NCBI GenBank assembly: GCA_945863875.1
Contig: CAMBBS010000028.1
Location: 1-57,474 of the forward strand
Reading direction: 5' to 3'
Origin: Desulfopila aestuarii DSM 18488
GTDB taxonomy: Bacteria; Desulfobacterota; Desulfobulbia; Desulfobulbales; Desulfocapsaceae
Length of the DNA: 57,474 nucleotides
Shown: positions 37,441 to 48,040 of the stretch, one piece after another
Layout: each line of letters starts with the position of its first letter
Numbering within the stretch: the stretch's first letter is position 1
Program-made: the position numbers and the translations under genes
The notes under the pieces: generated by a model
Told to the model about the DNA's origin: nothing
What the model saw: the letters and a program-made list of their open reading frames with translations, nothing else
The model's database searches: none

Positions 37441-38685
37441 TTACATCGGCACTATCAGTTTGTTCGTTTCCTCGTTCCAGGTAACAATCAAATACCAGGC
37501 GACCATTGTGCCGCCTATAATCAAGAGCGTCGGGCCATACCCCAAGACTTCCGGCATATATACATAGGAGCCGAGAACACCGTCGGCCTCAAACTCCTGG
37601 TCTTGAAACCAGGCGGTCATGATTGATGAAGTTATGGCGAAAAAAGGGACGACCATCATCAGTTTTACCTGCCCTTCTCCAACACGCCAGAGCGTTCCGG
37701 AGCCGCAACCACCGGCAAACATCGCCCCGAGACCGAAAATGAAACCACCGACCACACCGCCCCAGCCAAAAGTGCCTCGTACATAGTGGGCGGCGGCCAG
37801 AACCGCCTCCCCTTCCGCCCGAACCGGAACGGCATACTTGAGCACTGCCGCACCAATAGCAACAATAAAAATAGATAACATGACTGATTTTGCCAGGGTG
37901 CAGTCGCCGGTCATATGCGGCTCACGAAACCCCTGCACCATGCACCAGCGTCCACGTTGCATGGTGTAACCGAGGCAGGCGGCAAGAACAACAACCCCGC
38001 TGAGAGAGGCTATGTAGTCACTGTCCTCATTTCCAGCATAGGAATACGAGGCAATGATTATGCCTAAAATCCCAAGAACGCCGAGTCCGTATATAACGGT
38101 TGGTGGAAAGGTGACCGTTTTCGAACCACTGTCTCCCCAGGTAATATGTTCCATCTCCAGGTAGAGCAGTTTTAATCCGAGGATGACGCCGAAAACAAGT
38201 CCGATCATCATGGTAAATCCGTTCGCGGCAAGGTTGCCTACGGCATTATAAAAACCACCAACATTACAGCCGCCTGCCAGCGTGGCTCCTATCCCCATGA
38301 GCACACCGGCGATAACAGCCTTGACCATTTCCCGGTAGGGAGGGACTCTTAGGGCAAAATCTTTGCCAAGACAAGCGGATATAAATGCACCAACAACGAA
38401 TCCTATACCTATAACCGAACCGGAATTTACAAAAATAGAATCAGGTGCTGCTTCGTAATACTGGAAAACACCGGCTTCGCTACCGAACAGGCTGGCAACA
38501 CCATACATGATCCAGTCACCCCAGTTGCGGATAGCGCCAACAGCACCCCATGGTCTCCACCACGCCATCATCATTACCGAAAAAAAAGCGACAATAACGC
38601 CGGTTACATAAGGATTCCATTCTTTTTCACACAACAAACCGTATAGTTCTCTCGCCTTGTTTTTTAAAACAGACTCTTCACTCAT
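37441..38685 (-). CDS. yedE: YeeE/YedE-family sulfur transporter
   Basis: A 414-residue inner-membrane protein with about ten hydrophobic helices, of the family that includes the thiosulfate importer TsuA. Conserved cysteines thought to pass sulfur through the pore are present: GGCNVGG (Cys140), RGRWCMVQG (Cys248) and GGCGSGTLW (Cys327). The family has two-fold pseudo-symmetry, seen here as the two GGC motifs. It is divergent from tusA across a 400-base region. A yedE-tusA-dsrE set with two small genes has been reported (as the YTD cluster) in genomes of sulfur-disproportionating bacteria. Probable role: uptake of thiosulfate, sulfide or polysulfide sulfur. ATG 38685 has GGGAGA upstream. Confidence 0.9.
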   Translation of the reverse strand: MSEESVLKNKARELYGLLCEKEWNPYVTGVIVAFFSVMMMAWWRPWGAVGAIRNWGDWIMYGVASLFGSEAGVFQYYEAAPDSIFVNSGSVIGIGFVVGAFISACLGKDFALRVPPYREMVKAVIAGVLMGIGATLAGGCNVGGFYNAVGNLAANGFTMMIGLVFGVILGLKLLYLEMEHITWGDSGSKTVTFPPTVIYGLGVLGILGIIIASYSYAGNEDSDYIASLSGVVVLAACLGYTMQRGRWCMVQGFREPHMTGDCTLAKSVMLSIFIVAIGAAVLKYAVPVRAEGEAVLAAAHYVRGTFGWGGVVGGFIFGLGAMFAGGCGSGTLWRVGEGQVKLMMVVPFFAITSSIMTAWFQDQEFEADGVLGSYVYMPEVLGYGPTLLIIGGTMVAWYLIVTWNEETNKLIVPM

Positions 38686-38742
38686 AGTCTCCCTCTCCCC
38701 GTTAAATAATCTTAAGTTGAAACGCTGAATTGAAAAATTAAA

Positions 38743-38771
38743 TTTCTACACAGCCCTTGTTTTTTTGTCAA
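38743..38771 (-). promoter_or_regulatory. Promoter of yedE
   Basis: On the minus strand TTGACA (38771-38766), a 17-base spacer and TAGAAA (38748-38743), about 58 bases before the yedE start. Confidence 0.6.
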
Positions 38772-38867
38772 GACCAACCGCGTAAACCGCCGCCACAATG
38801 CATACTTTGTAGCGTTTTTTGTTTTTCTTTTCTTTTCCGTTGGTTATAATGTGAATATCTTCGCTTC

Positions 38868-38896
38868 TTGACAGAAAGACGTTGCTACGGTATAGG
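38868..38896 (+). promoter_or_regulatory. Promoter of the tusA operon
   Basis: TTGACA (38868-38873), a 17-base spacer and TATAGG (38891-38896). Transcription would begin near 38903, leaving a leader of about 183 bases to ATG 39086. Confidence 0.65.
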
Positions 38897-38940
38897 ACAG
38901 TATTAAGTCATCCCCGGTTAAAAGAAAATAATCCAAGATA

Positions 38941-39002
38941 AGTACCTTAGGTTCAGGATAATTTTTTGCAAAAAAACAAAAATTTATCCTGTTTTAGGTA
39001 CT
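38941..39002 (+). promoter_or_regulatory. Large inverted repeat in the tusA leader
   Basis: Two nested perfect pairings: AGTACCT (38941-38947) with AGGTACT (38996-39002), and CAGGATAA (38954-38961) with TTATCCTG (38984-38991). Inner T and A tracts extend the stem. No T run follows, so it is not a terminator. It could be an RNA control element or an operator for both divergent genes. Confidence 0.6.
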
Positions 39003-39085
39003 AAATAAATGTTACACAAAAGAGAGTTTATAATTGGCGCTGCTGCGTCAACTAAATACTTAATTTTATATTGAGGAGAACAACA

Positions 39086-39343
39086 ATGAGTGATTTAAAA
39101 GTAGTTGCCGATGACGTTAAGCCCAAAACTGTCCTCGATGCCAAAGGACTGAGTTGCCCCATGCCTCTTCTTCGCACCAAAAAAGAAATGGGAAAACTGG
39201 CCGCAGGTGAGATCCTTCAGGTAGACGGTACCGACCCAGGCTCACGAAATGACATTCCCGGTTGGTGTGAACGTTCAGGACATGAATATCTTGGTGAAAA
39301 AGAAGGTTCCGGTTTTATCAGCTTTTTCATAAAAAAAGGTTGA
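39086..39343 (+). CDS. tusA: TusA-type sulfurtransferase
   Basis: An 85-residue sulfur-carrier protein. The signature LDAKGLSCPMPLLRTKKEM carries Cys24 of the CPxP motif, which holds a persulfide. GEILQVDGTDPGSRNDIPGWC is the standard second half. ATG 39086 is chosen for the GAGGAG site at 39073-39078. In this cluster it likely takes sulfur imported by YedE and hands it to the DsrE-type proteins rather than serving tRNA thiolation (inference from context). Confidence 0.92.
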   Translation: MSDLKVVADDVKPKTVLDAKGLSCPMPLLRTKKEMGKLAAGEILQVDGTDPGSRNDIPGWCERSGHEYLGEKEGSGFISFFIKKG

Positions 39344-39400
39344 TTTCTACTCTATGTTGAGTCCCCTTTTTTATCCAGCGACTCAACAACATACGTATCT

Positions 39401-39450
39401 ACTGTAAGTGCGAACAGTTGTCCTGATTGTTCGTACTTACAGTCTTTTTT
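39401..39450 (+). terminator. Intercistronic terminator or attenuator between tusA and dsrE
   Basis: ACTGTAAGTGCGAACA pairs with TGTTCGTACTTACAGT over 16 positions (one mismatch) and is followed by six T. It lies inside the operon, 53 bases before dsrE, so it may limit read-through and keep TusA in excess. Confidence 0.75.
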
Positions 39451-39502
39451 ATTTGACTCACATTTAGATAAATAGCCACCATTATTTTTGGAGGAAGTTA
39501 AC

Positions 39503-39817
39503 ATGGCAAAGAGTTTAGGCATCTTTGTATCTTCACCTGACAGCCTGCAGCACGTCATAGGTATTACCAAGGCTGCTAAGGCCAAGGGCTCGAAAGTTAA
39601 AATATTTTTCACATGGAAAGCGACAACTCTGTCAAAAGATCCCGCTTTCCCGGGGCTTTGCGAATTAGCGGATGATGTTTCCATTTGTGTTGACAGCTAC
39701 CAGAAACAGGGTTTTTCCGTTGATGATGTTCCTGCCGGTCTTACCCCTAAAAAAATGGCGACGCAAGCTCAACATGGTATTATGATCGAAGATTATGACT
39801 GTTATCTGAGTCTGTAA
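39503..39817 (+). CDS. dsrE: DsrE-family protein
   Basis: A 104-residue DsrE/DsrF-fold protein (KSLGIFVSSPDSLQHVIGITKAAK at the N-terminus). Cysteines are at 53 (GLCELAD), 62 (SICVDS) and near 100 (DYDCYL); Cys62 or the last one could be the active persulfide site. ATG 39503 follows GGAGGAAG; the upstream TTG 39488 would include that site. It probably accepts sulfur from TusA. Members of the family act in sulfur relay to DsrAB/DsrC or in cluster-specific sulfur mobilisation. Confidence 0.85.
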   Translation: MAKSLGIFVSSPDSLQHVIGITKAAKAKGSKVKIFFTWKATTLSKDPAFPGLCELADDVSICVDSYQKQGFSVDDVPAGLTPKKMATQAQHGIMIEDYDCYLSL

Positions 39818-39829
39818 GGAGATATTGCT

Positions 39830-40132
39830 ATGGAATATAAAAAAGTTTGTTTGATGTACAGACACAAGGATTACGCGATTGATGGTATCCGCTCTGCCCT
39901 TGGTCTTGCCGTTGAGAATATGTACGCCTATGGCGTTGTTATGGATACGGAAATACCAAAACTTGATGAATTGACTCAGGAAAGCATCGAGATGCTGCGT
40001 GATATGGAAGGAGAAGTCTATTCCACAGTGCCGGCCAATGTGGAAACAAACGGTTTTGAGCCCCTGACCATCGAAGAACTTGGTGAGAAATTACGCGAAA
40101 TGACCCATATCATTCCTTACGGCATAAAATAA
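39830..40132 (+). CDS. DsrF/TusC-like small protein of the sulfur cluster
   Basis: A 100-residue protein. The N-terminal KKVCLMYRHKDYAIDGIRSALGLAVENMYAYGVVMD resembles the TusC/DsrF start (a beta strand, then an 'S/A-AEGLRAALGLA' helix), and Cys7 is its only cysteine. The C-terminal half is acidic with no known motif. It starts 12 bases after dsrE with a GGAGATATT ribosome binding site. I read it as one of the two so-called hypothetical proteins of the YTD cluster; the DsrF-like assignment is by eye. Confidence 0.75.
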   Translation: MEYKKVCLMYRHKDYAIDGIRSALGLAVENMYAYGVVMDTEIPKLDELTQESIEMLRDMEGEVYSTVPANVETNGFEPLTIEELGEKLREMTHIIPYGIK

Positions 40133-40151
40133 CTTTCCAGGAGTCTCTTCC

Positions 40152-40325
40152 ATGAAAATATTAAATATATATAAATCCGAGCCGGATGAAACAGTTAAAA
40201 AGCTGGTGGAAATAGTCACCCGTGATCGAGAAACCGACACGTTTAATCTCAATACCGAAAATCCGGATTACGATGCACTTGTCGACAAAATTTTTACCGC
40301 TGATCAGACTATCTGCTGGTGGTAA
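40152..40325 (+). CDS. 57-residue protein ending CWW, possible DsrH/TusB-like partner
   Basis: A short frame with ATG 40152 and AGGAG 15 bases upstream (40139-40143), 19 bases after the previous gene and ending 21 bases before the operon terminator. The N-terminus MKILNIYKSEPDETVKKLVE resembles the start of DsrH/TusB (LHxxxKSP pattern). The only cysteine is the third-last residue (TICWW), and a Cys or Trp at the very end is also seen in DsrH/TusB. If right, the cluster encodes a full D-F-H triad with a shrunken H subunit. Its translation, spacing and conserved ends support a real gene; the function is inferred. Confidence 0.65.
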   Translation: MKILNIYKSEPDETVKKLVEIVTRDRETDTFNLNTENPDYDALVDKIFTADQTICWW

Positions 40326-40346
40326 ACGAAAAATATTTTCTTCTTT

Positions 40347-40387
40347 AAAAATCCGAATGAACTCTTGGGTTCATCCGGATTTTTTTA
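40347..40387. terminator. Bidirectional terminator after the sulfur cluster
   Basis: AAAAATCCGAATGAAC pairs with GGTTCATCCGGATTTTT (one mismatch) around TCTTG, with A and T runs on both sides. It also contains the last codons of the converging hydrolase gene. Confidence 0.9.
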
Positions 40388-41853: not shown

Positions 41854-42984
41854 ATGGCACTAAACTGCACAGTAAGTAAAAATGATTTGCTTGAAGGTTT
41901 GAACAGCCTGCAGAATATAACCAATAAAAAAGGTACGTTGGCTATTTTATCAAACGTATTGATAAACAATGTTCCTGGCGGACTGAACATCACCGGCACA
42001 GACATGGAGGTAGGACTACGGCTTTTTGTCCGCGCTGAAATTCATGGTGAAGGTTCTTTAACACTGCCGGCTAAGAAGATTTTTGAGATAGTGAGGGAAT
42101 CAGGTTCAGAAACAATTAGCATTCAAGAAACCGAAAACAGCTGGGTCATCATCAAGGCCGGGCTCAGCACCTACAATCTAGCCGGCCTGGCCAGTGATGA
42201 GTTTCCTGAATTCCCTGAATACGAATTAGACACCTTTTTCTCCTTTAAAAGTTATATTTTTCTCGAACTTATAGAAAAAGTTATATATTCCATAGCCAGT
42301 GAGCAGGAGAATATTTATTCACTCACCTGCGTTCTCTTTGAAAAAGAAAAAATTGACGGAACCTACGCCCTTAGAATGGTTTCTTCTGACGGCCACCGTC
42401 TTTCCATCATGCAGAAAGAGGTGGACACGGATCTTGATCAACTCCATCTCAACGACGTCACCCTCATCCCAAAGAAGGGCATTCAGGAATGGAAAAAATT
42501 CTGTGAAGGAAGAGATACTGTTGAAGTTTCTTTTGAACCAAAACAGGTTGTGCTGCGAGATGGTCAGGCGGTTATGGTCATTCGACTCAAGCATGGAGAA
42601 TTTCCAAAATACTCCGCCATTATCGAAGCTATCTCTCTGACGAACTGCTTAAAAATAAACAGGATCCCTTTTCTGGAATCTCTGAAGAGAATAAATCTGT
42701 TCACCGAGGATATATATCATACTATCCAGTTGAATATCGATTTCAACAAGATGATTCTCTCCTCGCAAAATGCCGATCTCGGCAACGCCAAAGACGAACA
42801 GAGCATAACCTATAGCGGTGAACCGCTGACTCTCGGCTTTAACTGCCGATATTTCATTGAAACCCTGCAGGTTATGGAGTGCGAGACCGTAGAAGCATAC
42901 ATAAACTCAAACAGCAGTCCATGTCTTATGAGGTCGAAAACAGATAAGGGCTTTATAAGCATCATCATGCCGATGCAGTTATAA
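41854..42984 (+). CDS. dnaN: DNA polymerase III sliding clamp (beta subunit)
   Basis: A 376-residue clamp with three similar domains. LAILSNVLIN, FSFKSYIFLELIEKVIYSIA, VSSDGHRLSI and the C-terminal SPCLMRSKTDKGFISIIMPMQL are standard clamp motifs, the last being the partner-binding C-terminus. ATG 41854 follows AAAGGAG. gyrB begins 39 bases downstream. The usual upstream dnaA and downstream recF are both absent. Confidence 0.95.
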   Translation: MALNCTVSKNDLLEGLNSLQNITNKKGTLAILSNVLINNVPGGLNITGTDMEVGLRLFVRAEIHGEGSLTLPAKKIFEIVRESGSETISIQETENSWVIIKAGLSTYNLAGLASDEFPEFPEYELDTFFSFKSYIFLELIEKVIYSIASEQENIYSLTCVLFEKEKIDGTYALRMVSSDGHRLSIMQKEVDTDLDQLHLNDVTLIPKKGIQEWKKFCEGRDTVEVSFEPKQVVLRDGQAVMVIRLKHGEFPKYSAIIEAISLTNCLKINRIPFLESLKRINLFTEDIYHTIQLNIDFNKMILSSQNADLGNAKDEQSITYSGEPLTLGFNCRYFIETLQVMECETVEAYINSNSSPCLMRSKTDKGFISIIMPMQL

Positions 42985-45438
<2,454 letters not shown>

Positions 45439-45502
45439 TACTGATAGACGAGAAAAGCGCCCTCTCTTAAACGAAGTTAATTAAAAAAGCAGATATTCTC
45501 TT

Positions 45503-48040
45503 ATGAGCACAGATACTGAAAAAAGCAGTGAGCAGTTTCCGGTCATTTCCATAGAAAAAGAATTGCAGAAATCCTATCTCGAATATGCCATGAGTGTCAT
45601 TGTCGGCCGAGCCTTGCCGGATGTTCGTGATGGATTAAAACCTGTACATAGAAGAGCCCTTTTTGCTATGCGAGAACTGGGCGTGCACTACAATCGTCCC
45701 TACGTTAAATCAGCGAGAATTGTCGGTGATGTTATCGGTAAATATCACCCGCACGGCGATACTGCCGCTTACGATACTATTGTCCGTATGGCACAGAATT
45801 TTTCTTTGCGTTATCCACTCGTTGACGGTCAGGGCAACTTTGGCTCGATGGACGGCGATTCCCCCGCGGCCATGCGTTATACCGAGGCGAGAATGACCAG
45901 GATTGATCGAGAAATTGTCAATGATTTGGATAAAGATACCGTAGACTGGGTACCAAACTACGACAACTCCCTCAACGAGCCATCGGTCATGCCGAGCAAG
46001 ATACCAAATTTGTTGATAAATGGTTCTTCAGGTATAGCCGTAGGCATGGCGACAAATATTCCACCGCACAACATTACCGAGGTGGTCGACGCATTAATAA
46101 GCATGATCGATGATCCAAACCTCACCGTCCATCAGATAATGTCCATCATCACCGGCCCTGATTTTCCCACAGGCGGTCAGATATGTGGCAGAGCCGGGAT
46201 AAGAGAGGCCTATGAAACAGGGAGAGGCATCCTTGTTATTCGGGCCTTGACCCATATAGAAAAGATTAAAGAGGGCAAAAGAGAAGCAATAATTATTACG
46301 GAAATACCTTACCAGGTCAATAAGGCATCGCTTGTTGAAAAAATAGCTGAATTGGTCAAGGACAAGAAGATCAGCTCCATTTCCGAGGTAAGGGATGAAT
46401 CCGACCGGCACGGTCTTCGGGTTGTTATCGAACTGAAAAAAGATGAAATTTCTGAAATAGTCATCAATCAGCTTTACACCATGACCCAGATGCAGAAGTC
46501 ATTTGGTATTATTTTGCTGGCAATCGTCAATAACAAACCGGAAATACTCAATCTAAAACAAATCCTCGAGCATTTTATCGTGCATCGAAAGGTGGTAATA
46601 TATCGAAGAACGGCCTTTGAACTGAGAAAAGCGGAAGAAAAAGCCCATATTCTTGAAGGTCTTAAAATAGCTCTGGATAATCTAGACGATGTCGTCGCTC
46701 TCATCCGGGCGTCTAAAACTCCTCAGGAAGCAAAAGACGAGCTGATCCGGCGATACGAACTCAGTGAAATCCAGGCGCAGACCATTCTCGATATGAGATT
46801 GCAGAGATTGACCGGGCTGGAGCGAGAGAAAATCGTTCGTGATTACGAAGAAATAATGTCGGAAATTGAAAAACTCAAAGCAATCCTCGGTGATGAAACG
46901 CTGGTTATGACCATCATTAAGGATGAATTCAATGAGCTCAAAGAACAGTACGGCGATGACCGTCGAACAGAAATAATAGATGCAACGGATGAAATTCTGC
47001 CCGAAGACATGATCGCACCGGAAGATATGGCTGTCACAGTGACGCATTCCGGTTATATAAAAAGGAATCCAGTCTCTCTCTACCGGTCACAAAACAGAGG
47101 GGGCAAAGGTGTAACGGCCGTTAAGAATATTGAGGAAGATTTCGTTTCTGACCTGTATGTTGCCTCGACCCTTGATATTTTCCTGTTTTTTACTAATCAA
47201 GGCAAGGTGTTCTGGCGAAAAGTGTATCAATTGCCGCTAGCCGGCAGGACCGCTCGAGGAAAGGCAATCGTCAACCTGCTCAACCTGGCGGCGGACGAAA
47301 AAATTGCCGCTATTCTCCCCATCGTCAGCTTTGATGATGAATCAAATAATAAAACCATCCTTATGGTCACGAAATCCGGCCGTATTAAAAAGACCAGCCT
47401 GCAGGAGTTCAGTCGGCCTCTGCGTAAAGGAAAAAGGGCGTTAACGATTAACGAAGGTGATGAAATCATAGCAGCTCATGTCCTTAATGGCGATGACACC
47501 ATCCTGCTGGTTACCAAAAAAGGCATGTGTATACATTTTGAAGAGACGGATATACGGACCATGGGCCGGACTGCCGCCGGCGTAAAAGGTATCAGTCTCG
47601 GCGCCGACGATGAGGTTGTCAGTGCTATTGTTATTGATTCCAATAATTCAATACTTATTGCTACGGAAAATGGCTTTGGAAAAAGAAGCCCCATAGAGGA
47701 ATATCGCCTGCAAAAACGCGGCGGCAAGGGAGTACGTGGCATTAAGAGAAGTTTGAGAAACGGCGATGTCATTGCCGCAAAACAGGTTGATGACGAGGAA
47801 GAGGTCATTCTTATCGCTGATTCCGGCAAAATGATTCGAATGGACTTGAGCGCCATCAGGGTGATTGGCAGAAGTACTCAAGGGGTGAAACTGATTAATC
47901 TTGATGAAAATGAAAGGGTGGTCAGTATGGATAGTCTGGCCAAAGATACCAGTGAAGATGAAGATGCAACCTTTGACGATGCAAGCGGCCAGGTAATAGA
48001 ACAAAGTTCTGATGAAGAACCAGGTACCGATGAAGAGTAA
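45503..48040 (+). CDS. gyrA: DNA gyrase subunit A
   Basis: An 845-residue breakage-reunion subunit. The catalytic Tyr is residue 126 in [10 protein letters not shown]. The quinolone-resistance region reads [15 protein letters not shown] with Thr87 in place of the common Ser. The GyrA-box wraps DNA ([11 protein letters not shown] near residue 530, with related [10 protein letters not shown] further on), so this is gyrase and not topoisomerase IV. The acidic C-terminal tail is expected. It ends 11 bases into gpsA. Confidence 0.97.

Follow-up and report, generated by a model that had tools for sequence, protein, structure and literature searches.

What does a small set of sulfur-transfer genes, known as the YTD cluster, reveal about the sulfur metabolism of the bacterium that carries it? 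The question is raised by a 57,474-nucleotide (nt) contig of Desulfopila aestuarii DSM 18488 (CAMBBS010000028.1, assembly GCA_945863875.1; the whole stretch that was analyzed, hereafter the window), where a yedE-type transporter gene lies beside tusA, a dsrE-like gene and two small genes. YTD is one of two proposed markers of sulfur disproportionation, and it is now also a proposed marker of sulfur oxidation in sulfate reducers. We conclude that the window very probably holds a true YTD cluster, yedE-tusA-dsrEFH type II, whose products would relay sulfur from TusA through DsrE Cys62 to DsrC, and that presence of the cluster is by itself a weak sign of disproportionation.

All five genes are open and complete at the positions given by the first-pass annotation of this DNA, which had described genes of these kinds and recognized them as a YTD arrangement; both statements hold, with yedE, tusA, the dsrE-like gene and two conserved hypotheticals standing side by side. 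Gene content and order are the same as in the published YTD/DsrEFH type II cluster. Plum-Jensen et al. (2026; PMC13293266) report that the dsrE-like gene of YTD and the two “hypotheticals” form DsrEFH type II, and that the cable-bacterial proteins form a complex and transfer sulfane sulfur from TusA through DsrE to DsrC in vitro; a second group has likewise proposed a DsrEFH-like model (PMC13047784). The type II criterion (i.e. syntenic dsrE, dsrF and dsrH) describes the window, and the same set occurs in its relatives. The type I criteria do not describe it: there is no Pfam DsrE match and no counterpart of DsrH Cys20. Relatives were fetched with the DsrF protein as query, and most of the 80 named loci obtained (the best 80 of 118) contain the gene set of the cluster again. 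Near relatives of dsrE, dsrF and dsrH are found together at other loci. Within these best 80, DsrF identity is highest in Desulforhopalus sp. GLR1684 (94%) and stands at 92% in Desulfopila sp. IMCC35006 and Desulforhopalus singaporensis, among others, which places the organism in Desulforhopalus or close to it, within Desulfocapsaceae. Relatives of DsrF occur in 67 of 93 genomes of the family and 9 of 15 of the genus, and a DsrF profile search of the phylum found matches in 73 of 395 genomes; 40 of the 77 places from this search served as a distant sample, 39 of them with a DsrE match.

TusA Cys24 is kept in all 78 aligned sequences and DsrE Cys62 in all 79 of the near relatives aligned; each of the 39 distant DsrE matches has a cysteine in the same motif (read by eye). 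Cys62 is probably the counterpart of Cys67 in Electronema DsrE; Cys53 is without a counterpart in many distant DsrE proteins (e.g. L141 and L143). In single-sequence searches, DsrE, DsrF and DsrH of the window have no Pfam or NCBIfam match above the curated cut-offs, and DsrE matches no Pfam family at E<=1, the level at which 16 of 28 aligned DsrE members, the window protein not among them, match Pfam DsrE (best 3.7e-05). The predicted structure of DsrE (predicted local distance difference test, pLDDT, 89) resembles Allochromatium vinosum DsrE (2hy5_A; Z 12.1, root-mean-square deviation 1.9, 99 residues), Escherichia coli TusD (2d1p_A; Z 12.3) and YchN (1jx7_A; Z 12.0); the top ten rows of the comparison with PDB folds lie at Z 10.6-12.5 and the next at 7.4. 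DsrH is predicted as beta-alpha-beta-alpha-beta (pLDDT 93.8). Near its C-terminus, W56 and W57 are retained in 80 and 79 of 81 aligned sequences, and Cys55, the sole cysteine of the window protein, is cysteine in 67, serine in 13 and a gap in 1. Because serine takes its place in those 13 sequences, a catalytic role for the CWW cysteine appears unlikely. Three points weigh against the assignment as a whole: 1) the DsrH model finds its best fold match in HypX at Z 5.3, and the 50 rows shown include no DsrH chain; 2) profile searches of PDB sequences with the DsrE, DsrF and DsrH alignments returned no credible match (best E 0.19, 0.2 and 0.4); and 3) PMC13047784 sees in the complex a structural analogue of DsrEFH rather than an orthologue, and backs a role in disproportionation.

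The genome searched (4.69 Mb in 93 contigs, 98.5% complete) also encodes, away from the cluster, dsrA (577 bits, above the cut-off), dsrC and aprA; a weaker match directly after dsrA is presumably dsrB, and a sat-like gene falls slightly below its cut-off (315.3 vs 322.95 bits). By homology, YedE would move sulfur across the membrane, probably as sulfane sulfur or a thiosulfate-type species; TusA Cys24 would accept the imported sulfur as a persulfide; and the DsrE subunit of a DsrEFH heterotrimer would receive it on Cys62 and pass it to DsrC. DsrC may then supply DsrAB running oxidatively, again judged by homology and if the flux takes that direction, either in sulfur oxidation or in the oxidative half of disproportionation. 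The window copy would, by analogy, work like its cable-bacterial homologue, and the first-pass proposal of persulfide carriers that move sulfur has good support. The same proteins could in principle form a TusBCD-like relay for 2-thiouridine in tRNA, as the DsrE model is as near to TusD as to DsrE and the genome encodes a protein of the DsrC/TusE family. We consider this most improbable. The phylum-wide search found the DsrF profile in so few genomes that the gene is therefore no general housekeeping gene, even if single-genome absences may be assembly gaps; the cluster is linked to a membrane sulfur transporter; and reductive dsrAB co-occurs in 73.9% of carrier genomes (PMC13293266), which likewise speaks against tRNA thiolation.

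The pairing of YedE with TusA also brings to mind selenium uptake or assimilatory thiosulfate uptake by a YedE/YedF or TsuA/TsuB pair, to which the small genes would be accessory. Both families are common to such systems, and the window YedE is a distant homologue of the solved TsuA 6leo (phmmer 5.6e-16), its cysteines lying in QRGRWC, FAGGCGSG and LAGGCNVG motifs that all align. The scores nevertheless fall under every relevant NCBIfam cut-off, at 115.1 of 645 and 93.7 of 400 bits for TsuA, 100.1 of 350 for selenium-type YedE, and 35.6 of 79 and 27.8 of 110 for YedF, which argues against an uptake pair and makes it very unlikely here. The genome has a second YeeE/YedE-type transporter at C15:61003-62057 (L115 4989-6106), split into two half-size genes; a gene that by eye resembles an XRE-type regulator lies nearby, and no TusA was noticed beside the transporter.

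The first-pass annotation took presence of the cluster to suggest disproportionation. A module proper to growth by disproportionation of elemental sulfur (S0), thiosulfate or sulfite would agree with several published observations. Every S0 disproportionator in the survey of Novak et al. (PMC12998232) has YTD, and their Table 1 lists Desulforhopalus singaporensis (L105), a near named isolate, for sulfite disproportionation; D. glycolicus (L069) is also listed there, for S0 only. In Desulfolithobacter dissulfuricans, the five proteins were raised under thiosulfate disproportionation, YedE still remaining at <0.1% (PMC9751629). Against this, 25 of 63 cultured disproportionators have the three YTD genes, and many sulfate reducers that do not disproportionate are carriers as well (PMC13293266). 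YTD is further reported in some strains for which there is evidence against every form of disproportionation (PMC12998232), and Desulfosediminicola flagellatus (L057), which has the full cluster, reportedly does not grow autotrophically by disproportionating thiosulfate (PMC8497536). Irrespective of cluster carriage, Desulforhopalus vacuolatus is reported to be incapable of disproportionation (PMC8170396). Novak et al. state that YTD alone cannot serve as a marker (PMC12998232), and the authors of PMC13293266 interpret the cluster as a sulfur-oxidation module. The annotation had itself allowed that its suggestion would fall if the cluster were equally common in organisms unable to disproportionate, and this is largely what is in print (PMC13293266, PMC12998232). 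A dedicated disproportionation module is possible but doubtful; it also overlaps the relay that we favor, which may serve the oxidative half of that process. With an ordinary copy in the window and a marker of weak value, cluster presence should not be over-read.

The other proposed marker of disproportionation is the MOLY cluster (MolyA, MolyB and a TorD-type MolyC), and genes of the TorD type, found at five places in the genome (one in two pieces), were considered in this context. Three of these (C44, C7 and C8) have an adjoining molybdopterin subunit, and the C7 triad of PhsA-like, TorD and iron-sulfur genes fits a MOLY cluster by make-up; judged by eye, the gene that follows has no likeness to a membrane anchor. 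C7 orthologues at 71-89% identity are present in 7 of 12 named genomes searched, two of these seven carrying one in-frame TAA, and at 1e-50 the C7 PhsA-like gene finds no counterpart in D. glycolicus, which disproportionates S0. Against the NCBIfam models of ArrA, PhsA and formate dehydrogenase, the MOLY candidates score under the cut-offs. The stretches at C54 (L129) and C23 (L126) resemble each other: in both, a TorD-type match is accompanied by a gene that by eye looks TetR-like and by similar membrane genes, the one of C23 being weakly DsrP-like; the TorD frame of C54 has one TGA.

Table 1. Genes and putative regulatory features of the YTD cluster in the window.
Feature	Position	Strand	Details
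yedE/yeeE-type sulfur transporter (YTD “Y”)	37441..38685	-	414 amino acids; Pfam Sulf_transp 1.2e-48
Promoter-like element for yedE	38743..38771	-	-35 TTGACA 38771-38766; -10-like TAGAAA 38748-38743 (by eye); spacer 17 nt
Promoter-like element for tusA	38868..38896	+	-35 TTGACA 38868-38873; -10-like TATAGG 38891-38896 (by eye); spacer 17 nt
tusA, sulfur carrier	39086..39343	+	85 amino acids; Cys24; Pfam TusA 1.4e-23
Terminator-like hairpin, tusA-dsrE	39401..39443	+	19 pairs (RNAfold), -26.0 kcal/mol; then T-run CTTTTTTATT; found by scan
dsrE type II	39503..39817	+	104 amino acids; candidate sulfur-binding Cys62
dsrF type II (Chp of YTD)	39830..40132	+	100 amino acids; assigned by synteny and conservation, 81 aligned sequences
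dsrH type II (Chp of YTD)	40152..40325	+	57 amino acids; C-terminal C/S-W-W
Hairpin and T-run after dsrH	40347..40384	+	14/15 pairs, by eye; not listed by terminator scan

How the cluster is laid out for expression bears on when such a relay would be used. Orientation and the tusA-dsrE gap were counted in 77 named loci plus the window (78 loci in all; L035, L094 and L111 were left out for want of a usable tusA or dsrE match), and seven of these have no yedE match, leaving 71 for orientation. In 68 of the 71, window included, yedE is divergent. Divergence is therefore the rule of this lineage and no exception, and the first-pass view of the divergent pump as a departure from a plain operon is reversed. 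Among distant loci, yedE is co-directional in 26 of 29 with a yedE match, and the three divergent ones are of the same order. At L101, L104 and L110, yedE is co-directional and 76-77 nt from tusA, oriented as in most distant loci of the phylum.

The 400-nt stretch between yedE and tusA contains two outward-facing promoter-like elements (Table 1). Counting exact -35 matches only, across the 68 divergent regions of near relatives and against 100 rounds of dinucleotide shuffling, TTGACA facing yedE (TGTCAA on the + strand) is found in 66 regions (shuffles: mean 9.2, max 16), TTGACA facing tusA in 57 (mean 9.5, max 18), and both together in 55 (mean 1.2, max 5); the yedE-side element is also visible in the alignment of the intergenic region. 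A consensus promoter scan of the region returned 2 sites against 5.6 in shuffles and listed neither conserved element, so the case for promoters rests on conservation. By that measure the TTGACA elements may act as promoters of yedE and tusA, and the earlier idea that divergence allows separate control gains two distinct conserved elements in its favor. The text of PMC13293266, figures aside, contains no occurrence of “divergent”, “orientation”, “opposite” or “terminator”.

Downstream, the description of a tight operon applies to dsrE-dsrF-dsrH, with gaps of 12 and 19 nt, and not to tusA: between it and dsrE lie 159 nt that contain a terminator-like hairpin. A stem followed by a T-run, at -10 kcal/mol or better, occurs in this gap at 38 of 78 loci (shuffles: mean 1.45, max 4, n=20), and any hairpin of that stability at 52 of 78. 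For comparison, within the limits of crude gene calls, terminator-like stems were counted after dsrH in 42 of 75 loci (within 160 nt, at -10 kcal/mol or better), in 15 of 79 other co-directional gaps of 60-200 nt, before tusA in 3 of 77 and between dsrF and dsrH in 0 of 37. When the window is aligned with nine near relatives, giving 8 distinct rows, both partners have changed in 16 of the 19 hairpin pairs. The alignment has a covariation score of 0.434, compared with 0.228 for shuffles, none of 500 being as high, with the structure derived from the window and shuffles that ignore relatedness; sliding the pair partners drops it to <=0.165. Two of the 8 rows (L039 and L047) have no stem visible by eye. 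Being rare among the distant loci (2 of 31 gaps) and absent from many near ones, the hairpin is at most a lineage feature. A second inverted repeat, TGTTGAGTC ... GACTCAACA, is seen by eye at 39355-39388, between tusA and the main hairpin. Rfam, searched over the whole window at gathering thresholds, gives two tRNAs only, with no curated RNA family at the cluster.

The hairpin between tusA and dsrE may lower read-through into dsrEFH, or it may protect or process the 3' end of tusA. Published expression in two relatives argues against strong termination in them: in Electronema aureum, dsrEFH is highest, followed by tusA (there called yeeD), and in Desulfurivibrio alkaliphilus dsrEFH and tusA are expressed at about the same level (PMC13047784); tusA and dsrEFH are also reported to form one operon in E. 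aureum (PMC13293266). These data from E. aureum and D. alkaliphilus (PMC13047784) weaken the idea that TusA is made in excess of DsrEFH. The hairpin after dsrH likely marks the transcript end. A motif that might mask the Shine-Dalgarno sequence before dsrE (CCA...TGGAGG) seemed to be conserved when the genus was aligned and was dropped when it was found at 16 of 79 loci.

The cluster of the window lies upstream of dnaN-gyrB-gyrA (41854-48040), and this address is widely shared. At 42 of 62 loci with at least 3 kb of downstream sequence, dnaN or gyrB follows on the same strand (at the other 20 it does not), and upstream at least one of gatA, an HD-GYP gene and a deacetylase gene is present at 35 of 59 loci with enough sequence. 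This sharing on both sides makes inheritance in place likely for the relatives that have the address. Six genomes of the genus lack the cluster. In three of them (G057, G059 and G060; L190-L192), dnaN lies at position 3, 19 or 560 of a contig, and the remaining three have no dnaN match, so the missing cluster may reflect an assembly edge. In one of these genomes, the 560 bases that precede dnaN do not encode the neighboring gene of the window. In a close relative, L035 (1-4656), dsrEFH precedes dnaN with no tusA or yedE match in the 3.8 kb upstream; in G056, where DsrF has the same coordinates as in L035, yedE is on another contig. The L035 arrangement is either a rearrangement or a misassembly.

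From the distribution of orientations, the co-directional order may be ancestral. We tentatively suggest, as a view that is plausible though short of probable, that an ancestral co-directional yedE-tusA-dsrEFH was rewired in Desulfobulbales, often beside dnaN-gyrB-gyrA: yedE would have been inverted under a separate promoter, and selection would have kept a hairpin in the tusA-dsrE gap, yielding three separate levels of expression. The levels of import, carrier and relay could then be set by partial termination, or by RNA processing with protection of the tusA 3' end. The promoter-like elements, the covarying hairpin and the dnaN-gyrB address offer handles on when the relay is switched on, and the timing of its expression bears on the choice between the oxidation and disproportionation readings. 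This regulatory layout is a modest addition to the published account, in whose corresponding text passages it receives no mention.

Among known systems, Spirochaeta thermophila TsuA/YeeE (6leo) shares the Sulf_transp family and the three cysteine motifs with the window YedE; the two differ in that the latter is far under the TsuA cut-offs and that its two halves align in swapped order. E. coli TusBCD resembles the window in the fold of TusD and differs in its neighbor genes and in the limited distribution of the window cluster. A. vinosum DsrEFH type I (2hy5) has the DsrE fold and the three-subunit set in common with the window, whereas DsrE, DsrF and DsrH of the window have no Pfam match above cut-off, and DsrH Cys20, reported to be essential in type I (PMC13047784), is without a counterpart in type II-like DsrH. 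The likeness to DsrEFH type II of PMC13293266 covers the five genes, the DsrE cysteine, the order tusA-dsrE-dsrF-dsrH and the presence of dsrA, dsrC and aprA in the genome, and no difference in make-up is seen from the corresponding passages of that paper. The cluster is complete and ordinary, one more copy of a system that was already known and has recently been explained.

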